Origin: Geothrix sp.
GTDB lineage: Bacteria > Acidobacteriota > Holophagae > Holophagales > Holophagaceae
Direction: 5' to 3'
NCBI GenBank assembly: GCA_023701165.1
Contig: JAMPXL010000007.1
Span: forward strand, 1 to 11,343
Length of the DNA: 11,343 bases
The notes beneath the pieces were generated by a model that saw only the letters and a list, made by a program, of their open reading frames with translations, searched no databases and was not told the DNA's origin. A program made the position numbers and the translations under genes. Shown piece after piece: positions 1,790-10,097 of the stretch. Every line of letters starts with the position of its first letter. Position 1 is the stretch's first letter.

Positions 1790-3118
1790 GTGCCCCTTGC
1801 CGCGATCCTGATCTGCGCCGCCCTCATCCTGACCAGCGCCTTTTTCGTCATGGCGGAGTTCGCCGCCGTGCGCGTGCGGCCCACCCAGCTGGAGGCCCTG
1901 CTGGAGACGGATCCGCGGGCCACCTCGGCCCTGGAGATCCACCGGGGCCTGGGCCACCACCTCTCCTCCATCCAGGCGGGCATCGTGCTGTGCGCCCTGG
2001 CCCTGGGCGCCGTGGGCGAGGAGCTGTTCAGCCACCTCTTCCTGGGCCTGTTCGGCCGCCTGCCCTGGCCCGCCCTGGCGATCCCGCTCAGTTCGGGCCT
2101 GGCCCTGCTGGTGATGACCACCCTCCACGTGGTGCTGGCGGAGCTGGTGCCCCGCAGCCTGGCCATCCATTCCGCCACCCCCTGGGCCCTGCGCACCGCC
2201 GCGCCCCTGCTGGCCTGGTCGCGGCTGGTCCGTCCCCTCACCTGGGGCCTCACGAAGCTGAGCCACCTGGTGCTGCGCCTGCTGGGCGCCCATCCCGACG
2301 CCGACGCCGAGGACCTGCTGCCCAGCGAGGCGGAGTTCCGCCGCATGCTGGAACGCAGCCAGGCCGAAGGGCACCTCGAACTCGACCGCAAGGAGCTCAT
2401 CGAGAACCTCTTCGATTTCAGCAAGCGCACGGTGAAGGAGATCGCCGTGCCCCGGGCCCAGGTGGTCTGCTTCGACCTGCGCCACGACCTGGCGGAGAAC
2501 CTGGCCCTGGCCCGCACCACCATCCACACCCGCATCCCCCTGGTGGAGGGCGACCTGGACCGCGTGGTGGGCATCATCCACCTGAAGGAGCTGCTCTGGG
2601 CCATGCACGACGGGCCCGCCTCGGTGGACCTGCGCGCCCTGGCCCGCCCCGCCTTCCTGGTGCCCGAGATGAAGCCCATCCAGGGCCTGCTGCTGGAGTT
2701 CCAGCAGCGCAAGCAGCACCTGGCCCTGGTGGTGAACGAGCACGGCGGCGTGGACGGCCTGGTGACGCTGGAGGACGTGCTCGAAGAGCTGGTGGGCGAG
2801 ATCCAGGACGAGTTCGACCGCGAGGCCATCCAGCTGCGGAAGACCCGCGGCGGCGCCTGGCTGGCCCAGGGCAACGTCATGCTGGAGCAGCTGGTGGACC
2901 ACCTGCGCCTGGACCTGGTGGCCGAGGCGGGCTCCGTGAGCCTGGGCGGCTTCTTCCAGGAGCGCCTGGGCCGCGTGCTGCGCCCCGGCGACGAGCTGCG
3001 CCTCCAGGGCTGGCGCATCCGCGTGCTGTCCATGCGGGGCCTGGCCCCGGGCCAGTTCCTGCTGAAGCCGCTGCCCCAGGAAAACGGGGCCGGGAACGGC
3101 GATGACCCCACCCCTTGA
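1790..3118 (+). CDS. CNNM/CorC (HlyC/CorC) family membrane protein: DUF21, CBS pair, CorC_HlyC domain
   Basis: This 442-residue protein starts at GTG 1790, 3 bp after the preceding stop, without a clear Shine-Dalgarno, which suggests coupled translation. The N-terminal DUF21 domain (about 1-175) has hydrophobic segments at about 3-22, 60-80 and 95-120 and the family motif ELVPRSLAI near residue 117. A CBS-domain pair follows (about 220-335; note VVGIIHLKELL and LALVVNEHGGVDGLVTLEDV), then a CorC_HlyC domain (about 350-435; FLLKPLP near the end). The family includes divalent-cation (Mg2+/Co2+) exporters and their regulators in the inner membrane; the substrate cannot be read from the sequence. 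Domain order and length are normal. The last 17 bp overlap the next gene, indicating one transcription unit. Confidence 0.88.
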   Translation: MPLAAILICAALILTSAFFVMAEFAAVRVRPTQLEALLETDPRATSALEIHRGLGHHLSSIQAGIVLCALALGAVGEELFSHLFLGLFGRLPWPALAIPLSSGLALLVMTTLHVVLAELVPRSLAIHSATPWALRTAAPLLAWSRLVRPLTWGLTKLSHLVLRLLGAHPDADAEDLLPSEAEFRRMLERSQAEGHLELDRKELIENLFDFSKRTVKEIAVPRAQVVCFDLRHDLAENLALARTTIHTRIPLVEGDLDRVVGIIHLKELLWAMHDGPASVDLRALARPAFLVPEMKPIQGLLLEFQQRKQHLALVVNEHGGVDGLVTLEDVLEELVGEIQDEFDREAIQLRKTRGGAWLAQGNVMLEQLVDHLRLDLVAEAGSVSLGGFFQERLGRVLRPGDELRLQGWRIRVLSMRGLAPGQFLLKPLPQENGAGNGDDPTP

Positions 3119-3983
3119 GGGCTTCCTGCTGGCGGCGGGCCTGGGCACCCGCATGGGGCCCCTGAGCGCCTGCCTGCCCAAGCCCGCCTGGACGCTGCGC
3201 GGCAAGCCCCTGCTCCAGTGGGGGGCCGAGGCCCTGCGGGCGGCCGGGGTCCGGAACCTGGGCTGCAACGCCCACCTGCTGCCGGAGCGCCTGAGAGCGG
3301 TGGCCGGCGGCCTGGAGGTCTTCGACGAACCGCAGCTGCTGGGCAGCGCCGGGGGCCTGCGGCATGCCCGGGGCCGCGTGGAGGCCGAGCTGCTCACCTG
3401 GAACGCCGACATCTGGGCCGACGAGGTGCCCTTCGATCTGCTGCGGACGCGGCACCGCGAGGGCCACGGCGGCATCAGGGCCACCCTCAGCTGGCTGCTG
3501 GTGCCCCACCCCGGCGGGCCCTGGAATCCCGTGTGGATGGACCACGAAGGCCGCGTGCTGCCCAAGGGCGTGACGGGTCCCTGGGGGCCCTACCACTTCA
3601 CCGGCGCCGCCGCCTGGTCGCCCGAGGCCCTGGCCCTGCTGCCCGAGGGACCCAGCGAGGTGAACGACCTGCGCCCGCGCCTGGCCGCCCTCCCCGCGGG
3701 CCATCTGGGCGTGGTGGCCGAGCCCTTCCCCTGGCGGGAGGTGGGCACGCCAGCGTCGCTCATCGAGGCCGCCGCCGACCTGGCGCCCGATCAGGAGGGC
3801 CGCCTGCCCGGCTGCTACGTGCATCCTGGCGCGCACCCCGGCGCGCACCCCGGCGCGCACTCTGGGGGCCGCCTCACCCGCTGCATCCTGGGCCCCGGCG
3901 CCGCCCCGCCGCCCGCCATCGCCGATGCCGATGCCCTCTGGTTCGAAGAGGGCGGCCACCAGGTGCGCTTGGGCGTACCCTGA
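3102..3983 (+). CDS. murU: MurU-like sugar-1-phosphate nucleotidyltransferase
   Basis: This 293-residue protein starts at ATG 3102 inside the end of the CorC-like gene. Residues 11-28 hold the nucleotidyltransferase signature LAAGLGTRM followed by LPKPA, with R17 and K27 the expected NTP-binding residues. GSAGGL near residue 83 and NADIW with D103 match the base- and metal-binding motifs. In the MurU family the reaction joins UTP and MurNAc-1-phosphate to give UDP-MurNAc, which bypasses de novo synthesis in peptidoglycan recycling. A short C-terminal extension (about 238-270) looks like the first turns of a left-handed beta-helix but includes a repeated HPGA segment. The adjoining AmgK-like kinase supports the recycling assignment. 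A mannose-1-phosphate or glucose-1-phosphate transferase remains possible because substrate residues cannot be assigned by eye. Confidence 0.68.
   Translation: MTPPLEGFLLAAGLGTRMGPLSACLPKPAWTLRGKPLLQWGAEALRAAGVRNLGCNAHLLPERLRAVAGGLEVFDEPQLLGSAGGLRHARGRVEAELLTWNADIWADEVPFDLLRTRHREGHGGIRATLSWLLVPHPGGPWNPVWMDHEGRVLPKGVTGPWGPYHFTGAAAWSPEALALLPEGPSEVNDLRPRLAALPAGHLGVVAEPFPWREVGTPASLIEAAADLAPDQEGRLPGCYVHPGAHPGAHPGAHSGGRLTRCILGPGAAPPPAIADADALWFEEGGHQVRLGVP
3819..3866 (+). repeat. Four tandem 12-bp units inside the nucleotidyltransferase gene
   Basis: The unit GCGCACCCCGGC occurs perfectly at 3831-3842 and 3843-3854. A diverged copy precedes it (GTGCATCCTGGC, 3819-3830) and another follows it (3855-3866, GCGCACTCTGGG). 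The repeat keeps frame and encodes HPGA-HPGA-HPGA-HSGG. The two perfect central copies suggest recent slippage or duplication. Confidence 0.85.
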
Positions 3984-3987
3984 ACCC

Positions 3988-4971
3988 ATGGACCCCCGCC
4001 TGAGCCGCGCCCTGGAGCGCTGGAACCTGTCCGATCCCCATCCCCTGGCGGGCGATGCGGGGGCGCGGCAGTACGTGCGGGTGGCGCATCCCCAGCTGGG
4101 CACGGCCCTGGTGGTGCTGCATCCCCTGGACACGCCGGAGAAGCCCGACGACAGCTACTTCGAGTTCCGCGCCCTCCAGGCCTACCTGGATCCCGTGCTG
4201 CGGGTGCCCATGATCCTCCAGTGCGACGACGCCGACCGCTGCCTGCTGGTGGAGGATCTGGGCGACCTGTCCCTGGAGCGCCGCCTCATGGAGCATCCCG
4301 AGGAGGAGCAGCTCTGGGCCGAGCGCGCCGGCTGGCTGCTGGCCACCCTGGCGGGGCCCCTCACCCTGGGCGCGCCACCCCACGCCTTCTTCATGGGCCG
4401 GGCCTTCGACCAGGCCAAGTTCCAGTTCGAGTGGGACTACTGCCGCACCAACTTCTTCCAGGACTTCCTGCAGAAGGAGCCCCCCCGCTGGCTGGACCGC
4501 ATGATGGACGAGGCCCACGCCAGCCTGGAGACCCGGGCCCACTTCTTCGCCCACCGCGACTTCCATGTGCGCAACCTCATGGTCCACGGCGACCGGCTGG
4601 TGGTCATCGACTTCCAGGACGCCCGGCGCGGCGCCGCCACCTACGACCTGGCCAGCATCCTCTACGACGGCTACTGGGACTGGTCGCGGGAGGCCGGGCG
4701 CGCCCTGGTGGGCCCCCTCCAGCGCGAGCTGGGCTGGAACCACGAGGCCCTGCTGGAGGAGCTGAACCTCAGCGCCCTGCAGCGCAACCTCAAGGCCCTG
4801 GGCACCTTCGGCCACCAGCTGGTGCACCGCCACAAGGCCCACTTCGCCCCCGCCATCCCCCGCACCCTGCGCCACCTGAAGGGCCACTTCCAGCGCATGA
4901 ACCACCAGGACGGCGTCCTCGCCAGCGAGCACCTGCTGCGCCTCGCCGAGGACCGGCTGCTGAAGGGGTAG
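3988..4971 (+). CDS. amgK: AmgK-like aminoglycoside-phosphotransferase-fold sugar kinase
   Basis: This 327-residue protein uses ATG 3988, 4 bp after the preceding stop. I prefer it to an upstream in-frame ATG at 3925, which would lie inside the upstream gene. Residues 22-31 (GDAGARQYVR) are the nucleotide-loop motif of this kinase group. HRDFHVRN at 189-196 is the Brenner catalytic loop with D191 and N196, and VIDFQDARRG carries the metal-binding D208. AmgK phosphorylates the anomeric hydroxyl of MurNAc or GlcNAc in the cytoplasm. Its partner MurU then makes the UDP sugar, and the two genes are neighbours in Pseudomonas, as here. Length is typical. Family membership is clear; the exact sugar is inferred from context. 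No good Shine-Dalgarno is visible, which suggests coupling to the preceding gene. Confidence 0.72.
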   Translation: MDPRLSRALERWNLSDPHPLAGDAGARQYVRVAHPQLGTALVVLHPLDTPEKPDDSYFEFRALQAYLDPVLRVPMILQCDDADRCLLVEDLGDLSLERRLMEHPEEEQLWAERAGWLLATLAGPLTLGAPPHAFFMGRAFDQAKFQFEWDYCRTNFFQDFLQKEPPRWLDRMMDEAHASLETRAHFFAHRDFHVRNLMVHGDRLVVIDFQDARRGAATYDLASILYDGYWDWSREAGRALVGPLQRELGWNHEALLEELNLSALQRNLKALGTFGHQLVHRHKAHFAPAIPRTLRHLKGHFQRMNHQDGVLASEHLLRLAEDRLLKG

Positions 4972-5004
4972 GGCGCCGCCCGGGCGACTCGGATCCGAAA
5001 AGGG

Positions 5005-5034
5005 CTGTATCGGGCCCCGGGCTGGGCGTAGGAT
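5005..5034 (+). promoter_or_regulatory. Candidate host-type promoter upstream of the cassette array
   Basis: TAGGAT at 5029-5034 sits in a GTAGGATGGGG word that recurs before the propeller gene at 8694-8704. A weak -35-like CTGTAT lies at 5005-5010 with an 18-bp spacer. It is in GC-rich host DNA about 105 bp before the first cassette gene and could drive the array much as an integron Pc promoter would. The -35 match is poor. Confidence 0.35.
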
Positions 5035-5087
5035 GGGGTCGATTCCAGGCATATCGATGCAAAGGTGAGAGAAGGGTGTTTCTTTAT

Positions 5088-5116
5088 TTGATTCGTGAAG
5101 TTCGTCTAATTAAGAA
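5088..5116 (+). promoter_or_regulatory. Candidate AT-rich promoter at the left end of cassette 1
   Basis: TTGATT at 5088-5093 and TAAGAA at 5111-5116 are separated by 17 bp, directly before the first cassette gene (ATG 5141). The stretch is AT-rich, so chance matches are likely. Confidence 0.3.
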
Positions 5117-5140
5117 TTAAGATTCCTTCCAGAGGTGATG

Positions 5141-5413
5141 ATGTCCAATTACAACACTACAGATCTTATCAATCACCTTCGGGCCAAATGGAGTAACCGC
5201 CCTTGCCCTATGTGCCTAGTCGGTAATTGGGAGATAGAAGAATCTATCTATCAGTTGATGCAATTCAACGAGGGGAATTTAGTTATCGGTGGACCGATCG
5301 TTCCCCTGATACCTGTTACATGCAAGAACTGCGGTAACACAATTCTCATCAATGCCCTTGTTGCGAAAGCAATGGTGCCGCCCGCGAAACCAACACCGGA
5401 GGCACCCCGATGA
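5141..5413 (+). CDS. Cassette 1, first gene: small zinc-ribbon protein
   Basis: This 90-residue protein starts at ATG 5141, with AGAGG at 5131-5135 five bases upstream; ATG 5138 or GTG 5135 are also in frame. Two cysteine pairs, C22-P-M-C25 and C61-K-N-C64-G, would bind one zinc ion as a zinc ribbon. Between them lie W30 and a GGPIVPLIPVTC strand; the tail is proline-rich. Small proteins of this pattern are common hypothetical proteins and I know no assigned reaction. The stop overlaps the next start (ATGA, 5410-5413), so the two proteins are probably made together and may form one unit. Codon use is clearly less GC-rich than in the flanking host genes, consistent with arrival as a cassette. 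Confidence 0.8.
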   Translation: MSNYNTTDLINHLRAKWSNRPCPMCLVGNWEIEESIYQLMQFNEGNLVIGGPIVPLIPVTCKNCGNTILINALVAKAMVPPAKPTPEAPR

Positions 5414-5805
5414 ACGAATCCGATGGATTTGAGCTCTCTCAAGGCCTCACAGTTCTTCGCCCTCGTTCGGGGAAGGCATACCCCATCCCGTGTAACGAGT
5501 GGAAACAACTCAAAGAGAAAATCAAAAAGCTCACTACCGAGCCATGGCTCTACCAAACAGTTGGCTCACTTCTGATTGGCGTGGGTATATCCACCCTTAT
5601 TCCGGTTCTACTCGGGTCCTATTCAAAGCCCGATCAGGACCATGCCAGGGTTGTGGCTTGGGGTGTATTTTGGGTCGCTTCTGCCTGCGGTGGATTGTGT
5701 TTGTTATTCGCAGGTGAAAAACGGCAGCAGCACAAAGGTCGCGCCAACGATGTCGTTGCACAAATGGATTTAATCGAAGCGCGGTTTGAGCCACCGTCAT
5801 CCTAA
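5410..5805 (+). CDS. Cassette 1, second gene: two-TM membrane protein of unknown function
   Basis: This 131-residue protein starts at ATG 5410, overlapping the previous stop by 4 bp, with GGAGG at 5398-5402 seven bases upstream. The N-terminal 50 residues are polar and basic near EKIKKL. Two hydrophobic segments follow at about 50-70 (VGSLLIGVGISTLIPVLLG) and 78-102 (VVAWGVFWVASACGGLCLLF), forming a hairpin. The tail is charged, with a short helix DVVAQMDLIEARFE. No known family is recognised. The stop codon TAA 5803-5805 lies inside the left core of attC site 1. Overlap with the zinc-ribbon gene suggests that a membrane anchor and a zinc-binding partner function together; this is inference. 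Confidence 0.8.
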   Translation: MNESDGFELSQGLTVLRPRSGKAYPIPCNEWKQLKEKIKKLTTEPWLYQTVGSLLIGVGISTLIPVLLGSYSKPDQDHARVVAWGVFWVASACGGLCLLFAGEKRQQHKGRANDVVAQMDLIEARFEPPSS

Positions 5806-5859
5806 CCCTCCGCTCAACGCCTCGACGCAGGCGGGGCCGGTTGGCTTCATTTGTTAGAC
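5800..5859 (+). other. attC site 1
   Basis: The left core TCCTAAC (5800-5806) pairs imperfectly with the right core GTTAGAC (5853-5859), which matches GTTRRRY. Inner boxes GCTCAAC (5812-5818) and GTTGGC (5840-5845) pair with one unpaired base (T5814) on the left, the asymmetry expected of attC. The centre folds as CGCCT...AGGCG (5818-5822 with 5829-5833). The right arm has an extra GGGCCG (5834-5839) without a partner, so the left arm seems shortened. Confidence 0.82.
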
Positions 5860-5884
5860 CCTAAACCTAATCTTGGAGGTCTAC

Positions 5885-6325
5885 ATGCCATTCAAAACAG
5901 CTGTTCAGGCTTACCTCGATACTCTTGATCCTGATAGCCTGGAATTTAAGGTCCTGAACTACCTTCACAAAAATGGAATTGGCTCATCAAAGGCAAAGAG
6001 TTGGGGCAAGATTCAAGAGTTTGCCAAGGTCGACTCCGATGAATATTCCAAAGAAGATTTTCAAAACGGGCTTCTTGCGAAGTCAAGGCAGAACAAATTT
6101 TTCATTTGCTCCAACAATCGTGGTTATTACATCCCAGAGTCAATCAATGATATTACGGTTGCCAAGCATTATTATGAAAGCCGTATTGAGTCCATGCTAA
6201 GTAACCTAAATAATCTACTTGCGGTGTCCCAAATTGCTTACCCAGAAACTGAATTCAAGTGCATCGATGACTGGTTGGCCGAAGCTCTCGCTCGAATTCA
6301 TGCAACCGGAGCAAATCGAGCCTAA
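5885..6325 (+). CDS. Cassette 2 gene: hypothetical protein, possible winged-helix fold
   Basis: This 146-residue protein starts at ATG 5885, with a strong GGAGGT at 5875-5880 four bases upstream; a TTG at 5873 in the same frame is not needed. The middle section (ILE/VAL-poor helices around WGKIQEFAKV, then NGLLAKSRQNKFFICSNNRG followed by YYIP) looks like helices followed by a wing with a turn and GYYIP, as in winged-helix DNA-binding domains. A long helix follows (VAKHYYESRIESMLSNLNNL). There is no signal peptide or TM segment, so it is probably cytoplasmic. The fold call is by eye only and no family is recognised. The TAA stop lies inside the left core of attC site 2. The cassette is about 609 bp (5854-6462). 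Confidence 0.78.
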   Translation: MPFKTAVQAYLDTLDPDSLEFKVLNYLHKNGIGSSKAKSWGKIQEFAKVDSDEYSKEDFQNGLLAKSRQNKFFICSNNRGYYIPESINDITVAKHYYESRIESMLSNLNNLLAVSQIAYPETEFKCIDDWLAEALARIHATGANRA

Positions 6326-6468
6326 CCCCTCGCTCAAGTCGGACCCCGCCTGCACTGCCTTCCACTCTCTCTCAGAATTTCACGATCTCTCTCAACTTCT
6401 CGATTTCTTAGCTCCGCTCATCGCCTCTTTGTAGGCGGGTCCGATTTAGTTGGTTTTATTCCTTAGGC
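6320..6468 (+). other. attC site 2 (long variant)
   Basis: The left core GCCTAAC (6320-6326) fits RYYYAAC. The right core is CTTAGGC (6462-6468), with C instead of the usual G before TTAGGC. TCGGACCCCGCC (6339-6350) pairs with GGCGGGTCCGA (6434-6444), leaving one unpaired C. CTCAA (6333-6337) faces AGTTGG near 6449. The centre (about 6357-6430) is a pyrimidine-rich terminal structure. At 149 bp it lies at the long end of the attC size range. Confidence 0.75.
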
Positions 6469-6485
6469 ATTCCCCCGAGGTCCCA

Positions 6486-7178
6486 ATGGCTGATTCAACT
6501 AGAACGATCAAAGACATTGAACCCTACAGTGTTTTTGGCTATCTCCTTCCAGGAGCGGCTTTGTTTGGTGGTTTAATTGCACACTGGGAACATCCTGCGA
6601 ATTTAGCTGTCAACGGTTTGTTCAAGTCCTCAAACATTGCTTCAATTATAATTTTAACATCGGTTTTTCTCTTGATTTCTTATGGAATTGGTCATGCATT
6701 ATCAGCGGTGTCGGGATTAATTTTCGACACGATTATCGCAGATATTTTAATCGGTTATCCGATTGATGGATTATTCAAACCCGCTAAAAAAGTAAAACTC
6801 TTCGATTGGCTAAAATATTATGTTTCATTCACAGATAGCACGAAAATACGACTTGAGTTTATGTTTTTAGAAAAATTTAAATACAAACCATCGCGAAGTG
6901 AGTTTTATTGGATTGCATTCTCAGCCGTGGCTGCTCAAAGTAACGTGGGCGTCAACCGGATTCTTTCTTTTGTTGGACTTTATGGTTTCAGCCGTAACCT
7001 TTCGGCTGCATTTCTCATGCTCATCCCCTTCCCTCCGTATTATTTAACTATTTATGGTAATTCATTTTGGATGTGGGTCGGTATTTGCCTGTTCTTTTCG
7101 TTCGCCCGTTGGTTGAATTATATGAAGCTTTTAAAGCTATGTGACACTGAAATATGCACTCATTTTCTTGTTTTATAA
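6486..7178 (+). CDS. Cassette 3 gene: polytopic membrane protein of unknown function
   Basis: This 230-residue protein starts at ATG 6486, with GAGG at 6477-6480 five bases upstream. An in-frame TTG at 6450 lies inside the attC and is rejected. A DIEPYSVFGYLLPGAAL start leads into a first membrane segment (about 15-33), followed by segments at about 50-72, 155-182 and 190-208. A soluble stretch (about 95-140) between them is Lys/Phe-rich. Segment two ends in SYGIGHALSAVSGLIFD, a Gly-His-Ser pattern I have seen in uncharacterised membrane proteins, but I cannot name a family. This is the most AT-rich gene in the window, strongly unlike the host. The stop is 17 bp before attC site 3. Gene plus site make a cassette of about 858 bp. 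Confidence 0.78.
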   Translation: MADSTRTIKDIEPYSVFGYLLPGAALFGGLIAHWEHPANLAVNGLFKSSNIASIIILTSVFLLISYGIGHALSAVSGLIFDTIIADILIGYPIDGLFKPAKKVKLFDWLKYYVSFTDSTKIRLEFMFLEKFKYKPSRSEFYWIAFSAVAAQSNVGVNRILSFVGLYGFSRNLSAAFLMLIPFPPYYLTIYGNSFWMWVGICLFFSFARWLNYMKLLKLCDTEICTHFLVL

Positions 7179-7195
7179 ACACGATTGATCCATGG

Positions 7196-7326
7196 GCCTG
7201 AATGTCTGGTCCTCAACTCAACTCGGCCCCACCTGCTTTGCCTTTTGCCCTCTCTCGGCTCCTCGCTTCCTCGGATTCACTTAGCGCCCCGGTGCAGGCG
7301 AGGCCCGTTCGCTTCATTCATCAGAT
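7196..7326 (+). other. attC site 3 (degenerate cores, well-kept inner stem)
   Basis: GGCCCCACCTGC (7225-7236) pairs with GCAGGCGAGGCC (7294-7305), 10 of 12 positions. The other two become G-T wobbles on the complementary strand, the one that is folded and cut in integron recombination. CCCGTTCGCTTCATT (7304-7318) matches site 1's right half closely (GCCGGTTGGCTTCATT). The outer cores are poor: GCCTGAA (7196-7202) and ATCAGAT (7320-7326). The site probably recombines weakly, or is decaying. Confidence 0.65.
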
Positions 7327-7341
7327 CTTTTGGGAATACCC

Positions 7342-7944
7342 ATGAACGAAACCCCACAGGCTCTTGATCCCCGATCACTCAACCTATCCGATGGATGGAG
7401 AGCGATTCTCTCTGAAAACGAGTTATCTCTTGAAAACCCTGCAAAGGGCGACGCCATACAAATTCCTCGTTCCGAAGCCAATCAGCGCATTGAACGAATG
7501 AACCTCGAAAAGAGAAGTCCAAGTTTCTATGCCCATGTTCCGAAACCCAAACGGTTCACCGTCAACAAGGAAGATGCCGAGAGGCTTCTGGAATGGCTAG
7601 GCCCTGAAACACATTTTGAGGCCGGGCACCAACTAAAAAGGAAAGTTGGTTTTAATATTCCAGTAGGAATCTTCTATGTCTTGACCGCCTTTTCGAACCT
7701 ATGGTTTTGGGTGACTGGCGTCATCCTGCTCTGCACTGGACTTCTCTTTAAATATAGACCTAGGGTGTGGCTATTCCTTATGGATGGGGTTTTCTGGCTG
7801 TTGATTATGCTCTACCAGGGGTTTGTCTTCAGCCGAGACCCGGGTTGGTGGTCTGGATCATTCTTTGTGCTCAATGGATACTGGCTTTATCAATCGGTTC
7901 GCCTGTTTCAACGTTTCAATAAGCATGACCTGGCGCAGGCTTAG
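7342..7944 (+). CDS. Cassette 4 gene: soluble N-terminal domain with three-TM C-terminus, unknown function
   Basis: This 200-residue protein starts at ATG 7342; a TTG at 7330 in the same frame overlaps the attC end and is rejected. The Shine-Dalgarno is weak (GGGA at 7332-7335). Residues 1-100 are polar and alternate short strands with a helix (KEDAERLLEWLG), possibly a small PH-like domain of the kind seen in bacterial membrane proteins. Hydrophobic segments follow at about 104-135 (a broad one, possibly two helices), 142-163 and 166-190, the last rich in Trp and Tyr. No enzyme motif is visible. The stop TAG 7942-7944 lies inside the left core of attC site 4. The cassette is about 663 bp (7321-7983). 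Confidence 0.78.
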   Translation: MNETPQALDPRSLNLSDGWRAILSENELSLENPAKGDAIQIPRSEANQRIERMNLEKRSPSFYAHVPKPKRFTVNKEDAERLLEWLGPETHFEAGHQLKRKVGFNIPVGIFYVLTAFSNLWFWVTGVILLCTGLLFKYRPRVWLFLMDGVFWLLIMLYQGFVFSRDPGWWSGSFFVLNGYWLYQSVRLFQRFNKHDLAQA

Positions 7945-7989
7945 CCCTCCGCTCAACCCTTTGGCGCCGATTTGCTTTCTTCGTTCGGC
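7939..7989 (+). other. attC site 4 (degenerate)
   Basis: The left part GCTTAGCCCTCCGCTCAAC (7939-7957) matches the left half of site 1 except in the core, where TAAC has become TAGC. The right part GCCGATTTGCTTTCTTCG followed by TTCGGC aligns without gaps to the right half of site 1 and ends in GTTCGGC (7983-7989), one base from GTTRRRY. The centre TTTGGCGC is short. Pairing between the arms is poorer than in site 1. Confidence 0.6.
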
Positions 7990-8013
7990 TTTCCATCAGC
8001 TTGAGGTTCGTCC

Positions 8014-8508
8014 ATGGCTTCCTGCGCCACCTGCGGTTCCACCATCCTGTTCGGCGCGACCAAGGTGGGCGCCCTCTCGTTCTGCAATGCGGGGTGCCAA
8101 GCCAAGGGGCACCTGCTGATCCGGGCCGCTCAGATTTCGGACGCGGAGGCCTACGGGTGGGCCCAGAAAATCCATGCCGGCCGCTGCCCAAGGTGCTCGG
8201 GGCCGGGCCCCGTCGACACCCACATGTCGTACCGGGTCTGGTCGGCCTTCATCGTCACCCAGTGGCACAGCCGCCCGCACATCGCCTGCCGGGCCTGCGG
8301 CGTGAAGGCCCAGCTCGGGGACATCGCCTATTCCGCCGTCCTGGGCTGGTGGGGCTTCCCCTGGGGCCTGCTGATGACGCCGGTCCAGATCGTCCGGACC
8401 CTGGCCGGCCTGGCCTCGCCGCCCAAGGGATCGGAGCCCTCCGCCGCCCTGATCCAGGCCTCGAAGCTCGAACTGGCGGCCCAGACCTCCGCCGCCACGC
8501 CAACCTGA
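8014..8508 (+). CDS. Zinc-ribbon protein with hydrophobic C-terminal segment, unknown function
   Basis: This 164-residue protein starts at ATG 8014, with GAGG at 8003-8006 seven bases upstream. Residues 4-28 hold C4-x2-C7-G and later C24-x3-C28; C58-P-R-C61 and C92-R-A-C95-G form a second pair set. Two zinc-binding modules are therefore likely. A hydrophobic, Trp-rich segment (about 104-128, LGWWGFPWGLLMTPVQIVR) may sit in or against the membrane. Similar Cys-rich proteins ending in WGFPWG-type segments are common hypothetical proteins in many phyla. The gene begins 25 bp after attC site 4 and shares orientation with the cassettes, but its GC content is host-like and I see no convincing attC after it. 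It may be an old cassette or a host gene. Confidence 0.8.
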   Translation: MASCATCGSTILFGATKVGALSFCNAGCQAKGHLLIRAAQISDAEAYGWAQKIHAGRCPRCSGPGPVDTHMSYRVWSAFIVTQWHSRPHIACRACGVKAQLGDIAYSAVLGWWGFPWGLLMTPVQIVRTLAGLASPPKGSEPSAALIQASKLELAAQTSAATPT

Positions 8509-8549
8509 CCCCCGCAACCCCGACCCCGCAGGACACGCCAGGGCCACCA

Positions 8550-8585
8550 CCCGCCAACCTCCGCTTCTTCGCGGTCCTGGGCGGG
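8550..8585 (+). terminator. Possible hairpin after the zinc-ribbon gene
   Basis: CCCGCC (8550-8555) pairs with GGCGGG (8580-8585) and, concentrically, CCGC (8561-8564) with GCGG (8571-8574) around a TTCTTC loop, with a 5 x 5 internal loop between. It starts 42 bp after the stop at 8508. No T-run follows. It could be a terminator-like stem or a very degenerate relic of an attC-like structure. Apart from this stem and the promoter, 8509-8745 holds no gene I can support. Confidence 0.35.
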
Positions 8586-8670
8586 CGCCTGGTGATGGGC
8601 CTGCGTGCTGGTGGCGGCCCTGCGCATCCGGGCCCACCTGACCCTGAATGGTGAAATCAAGACATCCGGG

Positions 8671-8700
8671 GTGAACGCAGTCCGGCCGGGGGGGTAGGAT
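8671..8700 (+). promoter_or_regulatory. Candidate promoter of the propeller gene
   Basis: GTGAAC (8671-8676) resembles a -35 box and TAGGAT (8695-8700) a -10 box, with an 18-bp spacer. The GTG start at 8746 is 45 bp further on. The word GTAGGATGGGG also occurs before the cassette array, which supports a shared host -10 element. Confidence 0.5.
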
Positions 8701-8745
8701 GGGGGATGCCCCAAGCCTGATGTCCGCCCCCGATGGAGGCTCCCC

Positions 8746-10041
8746 GTGTCGCTTCGCTCGCTGCTGACTCGACTGGTCCCCGGAGCCTCCGGGCCCCCGA
8801 CGGGGGGATGGGAACGCCCCAGGGTCCTGGACCGGGGGCGGGTGGGGCGGCCGCAGATCGCCATGGACGACCAGGGCAACGCCCTGGCGGCCTGGCACCA
8901 CCGGAACCAGGCGGACGAGGGCATCTACATCTGCCGCTACTACGCCGATCAGCGGGGCTGGGACGTGGTGCCCCGGCGCCTCGACAGCGCCCGCACCCAG
9001 GCCCAGGCCCCGGAGATCGCCATGAACTACCGGAGCGAGCTGGCGGTGGTGTGGCACGAGCAGGAGGAGGGCCGGGTGCGGATCTGCGCCCGGCACATGC
9101 TGGGCTCCGAGGAGACCTGGGTGCCCTATCCCGTGACCCTCCAGGTGGCCCCGGGGGAGGTCCACAGCCTGCATGCGGCCATGGACCTGGCGGGGAACAT
9201 CCATGCGGTGTGGTGCCTCGGCGCACCCGGGGAGTACCGCGTCTATGCCAGCGGCTTCCACGCCGACGAGGGGGCCTGGGACCTGGAGGCGATCCCCCTG
9301 GGCGAGGCCTCGCCGGACCCGCTGTTCCCCCAGCTGGCCGTGAGCGACACGGGCCAGGGCCTGGTGGTCTGGAGCACGGAGGCGCCGGAGGCCCGCCTCG
9401 TGGCCTGCCACTACGACCGGGGCGCCCGCAGCTGGAGCGACCGCCCCACCCTGGTGGCCCGGGGCCGCTCGGTGTACCAGCGCATGGCCATGGATGCCCG
9501 GGGGAACGCCATCGTGCTGTGGGTGGAGAAGGGCGAAGGGGGCGTCACCACCCTCCACGCCAGCCACCTGGACGGCGTGACCGTGGAATGGCGGCAGGCC
9601 CCCCTGCTCAGCGCCGGACGCGCCATCCTGTGGCCCCAGGTGGGCCTCGACAGCCAAGGGCGGGCCCACGCCGTGTGGCGGCAGGAGGCCGCAGGGGTCA
9701 TGAAGCTCTTCGCCAAGCACTGCGTCGGCGGCCGCTGGGACGAGCAGCGCCTGGCCCTGGTGGAGGATCTGGGCGACAGCCAGGCCCACGCGCTGTCCGT
9801 CAATCCCCAGGGCCACGCGCTGGTCCTCTGGTTCCAGAACCGGGACGCCCAGTCCACGGTCTGCGTGCGGCGCTTCGACGGCCGGGCCTGGAGCGCGCAT
9901 CCCGTCCTGCTGGGCGCCCCCAGCCGCCGCGAGATCCAGAGCCCGGGCGTGGTGCTGTCCCCCGGGGGCCAGGTGGCCGCCATCTGGCGCCAGGGCAGCG
10001 CGGAGGACGGCTACATCGTGAGCGCCATGGGGCAGGCCTAG
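8746..10041 (+). CDS. Eight-repeat beta-propeller-like protein (sialidase/BNR-type repeats)
   Basis: This 431-residue protein starts at GTG 8746, with GGAGG at 8735-8739 six bases upstream. After about 30 residues it consists of eight similar repeats of roughly 50 residues. Each has the pattern [P/H]-x-[I/L/V]-[A/G]-[M/V/L]-[D/S/N]-x-x-G-x-A-x-x-x-W, first at PQIAMDDQGNALAAW (36-50) and last at PGVVLSPGGQVAAIW, then a turn and a strand often containing a W. This is the look of a beta-propeller scaffold. No catalytic residues or signal peptide are evident: the N-terminus MSLRSLLTRLVPG is weakly hydrophobic and lacks a normal core. A role as a binding platform is more likely than an enzyme. The stop overlaps the left arm of the long palindrome at 10036-10097. 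Confidence 0.8.
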   Translation: MSLRSLLTRLVPGASGPPTGGWERPRVLDRGRVGRPQIAMDDQGNALAAWHHRNQADEGIYICRYYADQRGWDVVPRRLDSARTQAQAPEIAMNYRSELAVVWHEQEEGRVRICARHMLGSEETWVPYPVTLQVAPGEVHSLHAAMDLAGNIHAVWCLGAPGEYRVYASGFHADEGAWDLEAIPLGEASPDPLFPQLAVSDTGQGLVVWSTEAPEARLVACHYDRGARSWSDRPTLVARGRSVYQRMAMDARGNAIVLWVEKGEGGVTTLHASHLDGVTVEWRQAPLLSAGRAILWPQVGLDSQGRAHAVWRQEAAGVMKLFAKHCVGGRWDEQRLALVEDLGDSQAHALSVNPQGHALVLWFQNRDAQSTVCVRRFDGRAWSAHPVLLGAPSRREIQSPGVVLSPGGQVAAIWRQGSAEDGYIVSAMGQA

Positions 10042-10097
10042 GGGCTGTTTTCAAAGTGGGGCGTGGCCGCACCCCACTTTGTAAACAGCCCCTAGGC
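10036..10097. terminator. 62-nt palindrome between convergent genes (probable bidirectional terminator)
   Basis: The sequence is symmetric about 10066/10067. Of 31 base pairs only 10051/10082 and 10062/10071 are mismatched, and 10064/10069 is a wobble. It runs GCCTAGGGGCTGTTT at the left edge, with AAAGTGGGG inside, and the mirrored arms at right. It contains the stop of the propeller gene (10039-10041) and ends 2 bp before the stop of the sirtuin gene on the other strand. It could serve as a terminator for both. Its length and perfection also fit a small mobile palindrome family. Confidence 0.7.

Follow-up and report, generated by a model that had tools for sequence, protein, structure and literature searches.

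The locus considered here is an array of gene cassettes on an 11,343-nucleotide (nt) stretch of Geothrix sp. DNA (assembly GCA_023701165.1, contig JAMPXL010000007.1, forward strand). Its closest described relatives are integrase-less integron cassette arrays (CALIN), sedentary chromosomal integrons, attG sites and Delta-attI-type cassettes of mobile integrons. The IntegronFinder 2.0 survey counted 2961 CALINs against 2760 complete integrons and describes CALINs as degraded (PMC9024848). CALINs at fixed places were reported in Xanthomonas, and the mobilisation of CALINs in trans has already been proposed; the accessible part of that report does not mention attI heads (PMC12444791). According to the IntegronFinder 2.0 paper, attI sites are poorly described beyond class 1, and that tool does not detect them (PMC9024848), so that attI heads of CALINs would be missed. 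The attG sites have been described as diverged from classical sites (PMC12901181), and the attC sites of Acidobacteria were modelled earlier (PMC8352920). In the literature searched for orphan, duplicated or additional attI sites, no description of attI-headed satellite arrays was found; 'attI-like sites' are named in a paper on off-target activity (PMC10127599), and Geothrix and integrons occur together in a paper on sewage.

The whole stretch, hereafter the window, is contig C254 of assembly G000 (361 contigs, 58% complete). It was compared with genomes of the family Holophagaceae, of which 77 were examined (labelled G), and with fetched loci (labelled L). Like a CALIN, which has two or more attC sites in one direction and no integrase gene (intI) nearby, the window contains four such sites, three of them at E < 1e-6, and no intI. 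The identification made in the first-pass annotation, an integron cassette array that lacks a local integrase gene, is therefore supported. Unlike the CALINs described as degraded, the window has an attI-like head, and in its relatives the attI heads are intact and cassettes have been exchanged recently. We consider it probable from the sequence comparisons that this array arose at an attI-like docking site immediately downstream of an APH-family (phosphotransferase) gene and was filled by an integrase encoded elsewhere. Judged by its sequence, the window itself is an ordinary kind of element, a worn CALIN, in an unusual setting, and the interesting part of this setting seems to be the several attI-headed arrays apparently served by one integrase.

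In order to examine the attC sites, a covariance model was built from 38 aligned sites, all of them adjacent to intI in other genomes and none taken from the window. The attC sites beside intI genes are about 124 nt long and nearly uniform in sequence, and the consensus fold of the 38 sites contains R''/R' and L''/L' stems, with changes on both sides in 12 of 27 pairs. The model matched exactly the four places annotated earlier as attC-like and in the same orientation:

5800-5859, + strand: attC site A, 60 nt; 31.3 bits, E 2.8e-7.
6320-6468, + strand: attC site B, 149 nt; 79.9 bits, E 1.1e-20; R' core worn (CTTAGGC).
7204-7326, + strand: attC site C, 123 nt; 86.6 bits, E 1.7e-22; both cores worn (GTCTGGT, ATCAGAT).
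7939-7989, + strand: attC site D, 51 nt; a weak match of 16.4 bits, E 0.0033 when the window alone is searched; R' core GTTCGGC.

It could be supposed that chance inverted repeats in an island of low guanine and cytosine (GC) content have been mistaken for attC sites, since the cores of B and C are worn and D is short and weak. However, no fifth place in the window was matched at E 10 by the model trained on intI-adjacent sites; the covariance matches refute this supposition for A, B and C, and for the array as a whole it can be practically dismissed. In a search of 81,895 bases, site D weakens to E 0.024, and it does not appear in the whole-genome list at E 1, for which 150 of 1374 first-look candidates were scored; its identification rests partly on its position and on the GTTCGGC core. 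Among the same scored candidates, one further attC site each was found on the G000 contigs C290, C324 and C320, and on the last of these (L109, 70-396) a short attC follows an attI-like core, GCCTAATTTAAAGTTAGGC. A half-site scan gave 64 sites in the fetched loci, some of which overlap, against 4 after these loci had been shuffled. A search requiring paired cores and strong folding recovered few attC sites, and an Rfam scan of the window at gathering scores gave no match.

Conservation of GTT at the start of R' was read from the covariance alignments, because a core-masked scan proved too loose, with chance matches across the window, and its counts were not used. GTT is retained in sites A and D and lost in B and C. 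In the genomes G011, G018 and G021, R' starts with GTT in 64 of 68 sites of the intI-array stretches and in 139 of 148 sites in the stretches of the remaining arrays, where one site is truncated by the end of its stretch. Since two R' cores of the window and the R box of its attI-like site have lost GTT, the array is presumably now partly frozen. Pairing of R'' with R' and of L'' with L', with extrahelical bases, is seen in the family consensus; site A has lost the long stem. The 124-nt consensus carries a CTCCGCTCA repeat at positions 9 and 73; the consensus minus the 64 nt between these repeats is 60 nt long, and site A agrees with it at 53 of 60 positions without gaps. Site A would fit a deletion between internal direct repeats, a possible route of attC wear. 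Other short attC sites in relatives (65-67 nt) are of a different type.

The head of the array contains two features:

5029-5037, + strand: TAGGATGGG box, a possible promoter element; 8 or 9 of 9 letters in five sisters.
5100-5122, + strand: worn attI-like docking site, R box ATTAAGA in place of GTTAGRC; 18 of 23 letters.

Since L008 and L014 supplied the 23-letter pattern, their own scores (23 and 21) are no test of it. The window core is the best place in the window, and its score was reached by none of 300 whole-window shuffles and by 2 of 5000 shuffles of positions 4972-5135. An R box of the form GTTRRRY beside the L box is present in L008 and L014; the corresponding box of the window is ATTAAGA, and for this reason the site is called attI-like and not attI. 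The L008 core, GTCTGATTTTGAGTTAGAC, is close to the intI-linked attI, GTCCAATTCAAAGTTAGGC. Box-to-core spacing and core scores were measured in 28 sister loci. A box like that of the window followed by an attI-like core was found, in this order after the APH-family gene, in the window, L008, L009, L014, L016 and L026. The spacing from start to start is 51 nt in L008, L009 and L014, 50 nt in L016, 48 nt in L026 and 71 nt in the window. A role of the box as a promoter is conceivable. In L008, a second copy of the 3' end of the APH-family gene, with an altered box and an altered attI-like core, was observed at 2259-2530, with other cassettes behind it.

The array is flanked by two resident genes:

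3988-4971, + strand: APH-family (phosphotransferase) gene, left flank, resident chromosomal gene (Pfam PF01636, E 6.8e-17).
8746-10041, + strand: right-flank resident gene, 431 amino acids (aa); neighbour of the APH-family gene in empty sites.

The APH-family gene was found in 70 of the 77 genomes at E 1e-60, and its nearest relatives are in Geothrix, with up to 93% amino-acid identity, which places the host in Geothrix or near it. The two flanking genes are separated by 3774 bases in the window, by about 3000 in L001 and L012, by 626 in L007, by 155 in L030 and by 72 in L006; for the majority of the remaining loci, no right-flank gene was found near the APH-family gene. The place was scanned for attC in 34 loci, namely 32 loci plus L096 and L099, which represent the same place in two further genomes. 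Strong attC sites were found downstream of the APH-family gene in L008, L014, L016 and L026; the matches in L007 and L096 had E above 0.3, and a minus-strand match in L026 lies elsewhere. The six cassette proteins of the window had no match in 64 loci (tblastn, E 0.01). In sisters, the same docking place holds other cassettes or none, and the cassette genes do not form one invariant block there.

According to the usual account of such arrays, this one would be the remains of a complete integron that lost intI in place and whose cassettes decayed. The worn cores, the presence of an attI-like site and a promoter-like box at the head, and the published description of CALINs as degraded integrons agree with this account. 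In addition, some satellite heads elsewhere carry a piece resembling the 5' end of intI (by eye), for which either intI loss or a mobile unit is possible. However, no intI was found at this place in L001-L032 (tblastn, E 1e-5), and the sisters with cassettes here have an intact intI on other contigs, the match being over the cut-off in five sister genomes (G020, G027, G028, G030 and G032). Exact sharing of cassettes between arrays in other genomes, described below, also needs no local intI. We therefore regard loss of intI in place as unlikely for the window.

The preferred reading, filling by an integrase encoded elsewhere, was further examined at the level of the family. Integron integrases (TIGR02249 over the cut-off) were found in 46 of the 77 genomes. 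There are 44 matches to the attI pattern GTCYRAT-N5-GTTAGRC, spread over 25 of the 77 genomes, and none to the reversed pattern used as a control. By their coordinates, 15 of these sites adjoin intI, one is that of L008, and the other 28 were fetched; no intI was found in these 28 orphan attI stretches (tblastn, E 1e-4). Same-direction attC sites lie downstream of 24 of the 28 orphan sites, two or more of them in 18 cases. As to the four orphan sites without attC, L088 and L097 reach the contig end within 140 nt, and L090 and L091, which are from other genera, have none.

These results also bear on the possibility that cassettes landed by chance at a non-classical genomic site of the attG kind, the attI-like head being coincidental or brought by the first cassette. 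Such insertions have been reported (Loot 2024, as described in citing papers), and the window core has no GTT. However, the core and box stand at a fixed spacing in L008, L009 and L014 (51 nt) and in L016 (50 nt), and the attI pattern with its empty control is hardly expected from chance landing. The Geothrix satellites share with attG sites the location of cassettes away from intI and the G|TT junction, but their heads match the attI of their own genome; in G018, the spacer TACTA is common to the intI-linked attI and to the heads of arrays a-c, and the head of array d differs. Landing at an attG site is therefore considered very unlikely.

Several arrays were found within single genomes. Among the matches listed, for which 150 candidates were scored per genome, there are at least three arrays in G011, at least five in G018 and at least four in G021, and more may exist; one per genome lies beside intI (3 of 12). 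All 12 fetched arrays have an attI-like head with 18 or 19 of 19 letters, including the smallest one, in G018, which has two or three attC sites. Two further attI-like matches with 16 of 19 letters lie inside the G011 arrays. At the far end of G018 array a (L115, 13277-14038), a tyrosine recombinase gene was observed, the product of which is 33% identical to IntI and falls below the integrase cut-off. The Geothrix arrangement shares with sedentary chromosomal integrons of the Vibrio and Xanthomonas type the uniform attC sites of about 124 nt, the many uncharacterised cassette genes and the single intI with its attI. It differs in that the cassettes are spread over at least three to five attI-headed arrays in each of the three genomes.

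Movement of cassettes between these arrays was evaluated by comparing 256 cassette bodies from 15 arrays of G011, G018, G021 and G033. Similarity extending over 100 nt or more was found in 50 pairs of cassettes from different arrays of the same genome, and 12 pairs are 100% identical. Fourteen exact stretches of at least 200 nt were found in G011, G018 and G021; 10 of them start and end on a GTTAGG core, one is 4 nt short of the core, and the remaining three depart from this pattern at one end or at both. A 317-nt stretch of G021 lies after an attC site in the 1.58 Mb array and directly after the orphan attI in the C2 array. The orthologous orphan heads of different genomes were compared as well. 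Nine pairs have flanks that match to within 1 nt; seven of them were tested, two pairs involving L097 being excluded because of the contig end. In each of the seven, an identity of 86-94% was found over the 800 nt that reach to no more than 2 nt from G|TT. Past G|TT, nothing is shared by two of the pairs; in the other five, the similarity is limited to stretches of 44-126 nt at unequal offsets, at the beginning of attC. In the remaining orthologous head pairs, the nearest match ends 58-631 nt upstream of the core.

A unit some 225 bp long, preceded by a GTTAGGC core and closed by an attI core, was found in three kinds of position. It stands directly after intI-linked attI (L058, 18067-18291; L035, 2725-2950), behind attC within arrays (L054, 19120-19340; L078, 2320-2539; L121, 3565-3786; L072, within 8285-8725) and at satellite heads, where it is whole in L072 (77-80% identity) and partial in L073 and L084. 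The longest frame inside the unit is 15-62 aa (26-62 aa in seven copies) and is not conserved between copies. The attC model found nothing inside six copies, nor in L121. The unit thus resembles the Delta-attI-type cassettes, which have attI instead of attC at the right end (PMC12901181). It differs from them in having no shared open reading frame and no attC and in standing also at satellite heads. It could be an attI-bearing cassette that may seed satellites.

Under the preferred reading of the window, an integrase encoded elsewhere in the genome would cut the head site at G|TT, and circular cassettes would be inserted by recombination of attC with attI, as at an ordinary attI. Sister genomes repeat this arrangement, with one intI and several attI-headed satellite arrays that show recent cassette movement. 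A broader proposal, which we favour on balance, is that Geothrix has a distributed integron, in which one integrase feeds satellite arrays that are scattered over the chromosome, each have their own attI and were seeded by a small mobile unit with an attI instead of a gene and attC. The CALINs would then be working outposts and not ruins, and the window a worn one.

Several observations weigh against these readings. The R box of the window is not GTTAGRC, and the window cassettes were not found in other arrays; because of both, action in trans at the window site itself may only be presumed from the wider comparison. The cores of L009, L016 and L026 are weak, with 14-15 of 23 letters, and the unrelated loci L001 and L004 also score 14-15 by chance, so that the case for the former three is carried by the box and the spacing. 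No TIGR02249 match was found in the G000 contigs, a search that had been proposed in the first-pass annotation; since the assembly is 58% complete, the absence of intI applies to its assembled part. Finally, none of the three G033 arrays and not the G035 array reaches 16 of 19 attI letters, and two G033 satellite arrays (L124-L126 stretches) begin, by eye, at half attC sites. By eye, the attI of the G033 intI array has a spacer of four bases; in G035, intI is split.

The cassettes of the window contain the following genes:

5138-5413, + strand: cassette 1, gene 1, 91 aa; Cys pairs, zinc-ribbon-like by eye, no family over the cut-off.
5410-5805, + strand: cassette 1, gene 2, 131 aa; two hydrophobic segments (hydropathy).
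5885-6325, + strand: cassette 2, 146 aa; five relatives with 55-88% identity among 5.8 billion proteins.
6486-7178, + strand: cassette 3, 230 aa; one strongly hydrophobic segment (hydropathy).
7342-7944, + strand: cassette 4, 200 aa; hydrophobic C-terminal half.
8014-8508, + strand: putative cassette 5, terminal, own attC gone; 164 aa, GC 71%.

The two genes of cassette 1 overlap by four bases, and cassettes 2-4 have one gene each. The R'' heptamers of sites A, B and D contain the stop codons TAA 5803-5805, TAA 6323-6325 and TAG 7942-7944, as had been noticed from the sequence earlier, and the stop codon of the 6486-7178 gene is 25 bases upstream of site C. The GC content drops from 71% (4501-5000) to 49% (5001-5500) and rises again from 48% (7501-8000) to 70% (8001-8500), so that the sharp change described for both edges is real. 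However, the right step does not mark where the array ends, since the 8014-8508 gene beyond it has a 68% identical cassette relative in the intI array of G011. The first-pass annotation had confined the array to 5101..7989 and to five genes; the array itself stands, but it runs at least to 8508, with six genes in five cassettes.

We read the 8014-8508 gene as a terminal cassette that has probably lost its attC. The G011 gene is the only good relative of the 164-aa protein in the 77 genomes; it lies between two attC sites, and its cassette begins with the core GTTCGGC, the same as that of site D. A third match in these genomes (E 9.8e-4) is interrupted by stops. Because of its high GC content, a long residence of this cassette is suggested.

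The earlier statement that no cassette encodes a known resistance or defence protein was confirmed at the thresholds used: none of the six proteins was over the cut-off in Pfam or NCBIfam, and none matched PADLOC models at E 0.1. A defence or resistance function of the cassettes is thus unsupported in these scans, and the view of the first-pass annotation that the proteins are candidates for new small systems stays tentative. Weak matches to PHROG families of unknown function were obtained (best E 0.00027). Among the 5.8 billion proteins, the 230-aa protein has, besides itself, one distant relative with 25% identity, and the 200-aa protein has five relatives with 53-63% identity plus a 148-aa entry at 100%. 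Within the family, the 77 genomes gave two distant matches (31-32%) to the 146-aa protein and, for the 200-aa protein, none besides itself. The predicted structure of the latter has a mean predicted local distance difference test score (pLDDT) of 76. A winged-helix reading of the 146-aa protein was made by eye and is not claimed.

In the left flank of the window (3102-4971), a nucleotidyltransferase gene adjoins the APH-family kinase gene, a pair that, we presume, recalls peptidoglycan recycling (MurU/AmgK). Tandem 12-base repeats were observed within the nucleotidyltransferase gene (3818-3865). At 10036-10097, a near-perfect inverted repeat with 31-nt arms, 90% complementary, lies between convergent genes and is terminator-like.

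The survey of satellites covers Holophagaceae, and cultured strains of Geothrix, a harmless genus, exist. If it is true that many CALINs own an attI and are fed in trans, a cell would have several first (expressed) cassette positions and not one, and the origin of CALINs would become testable.

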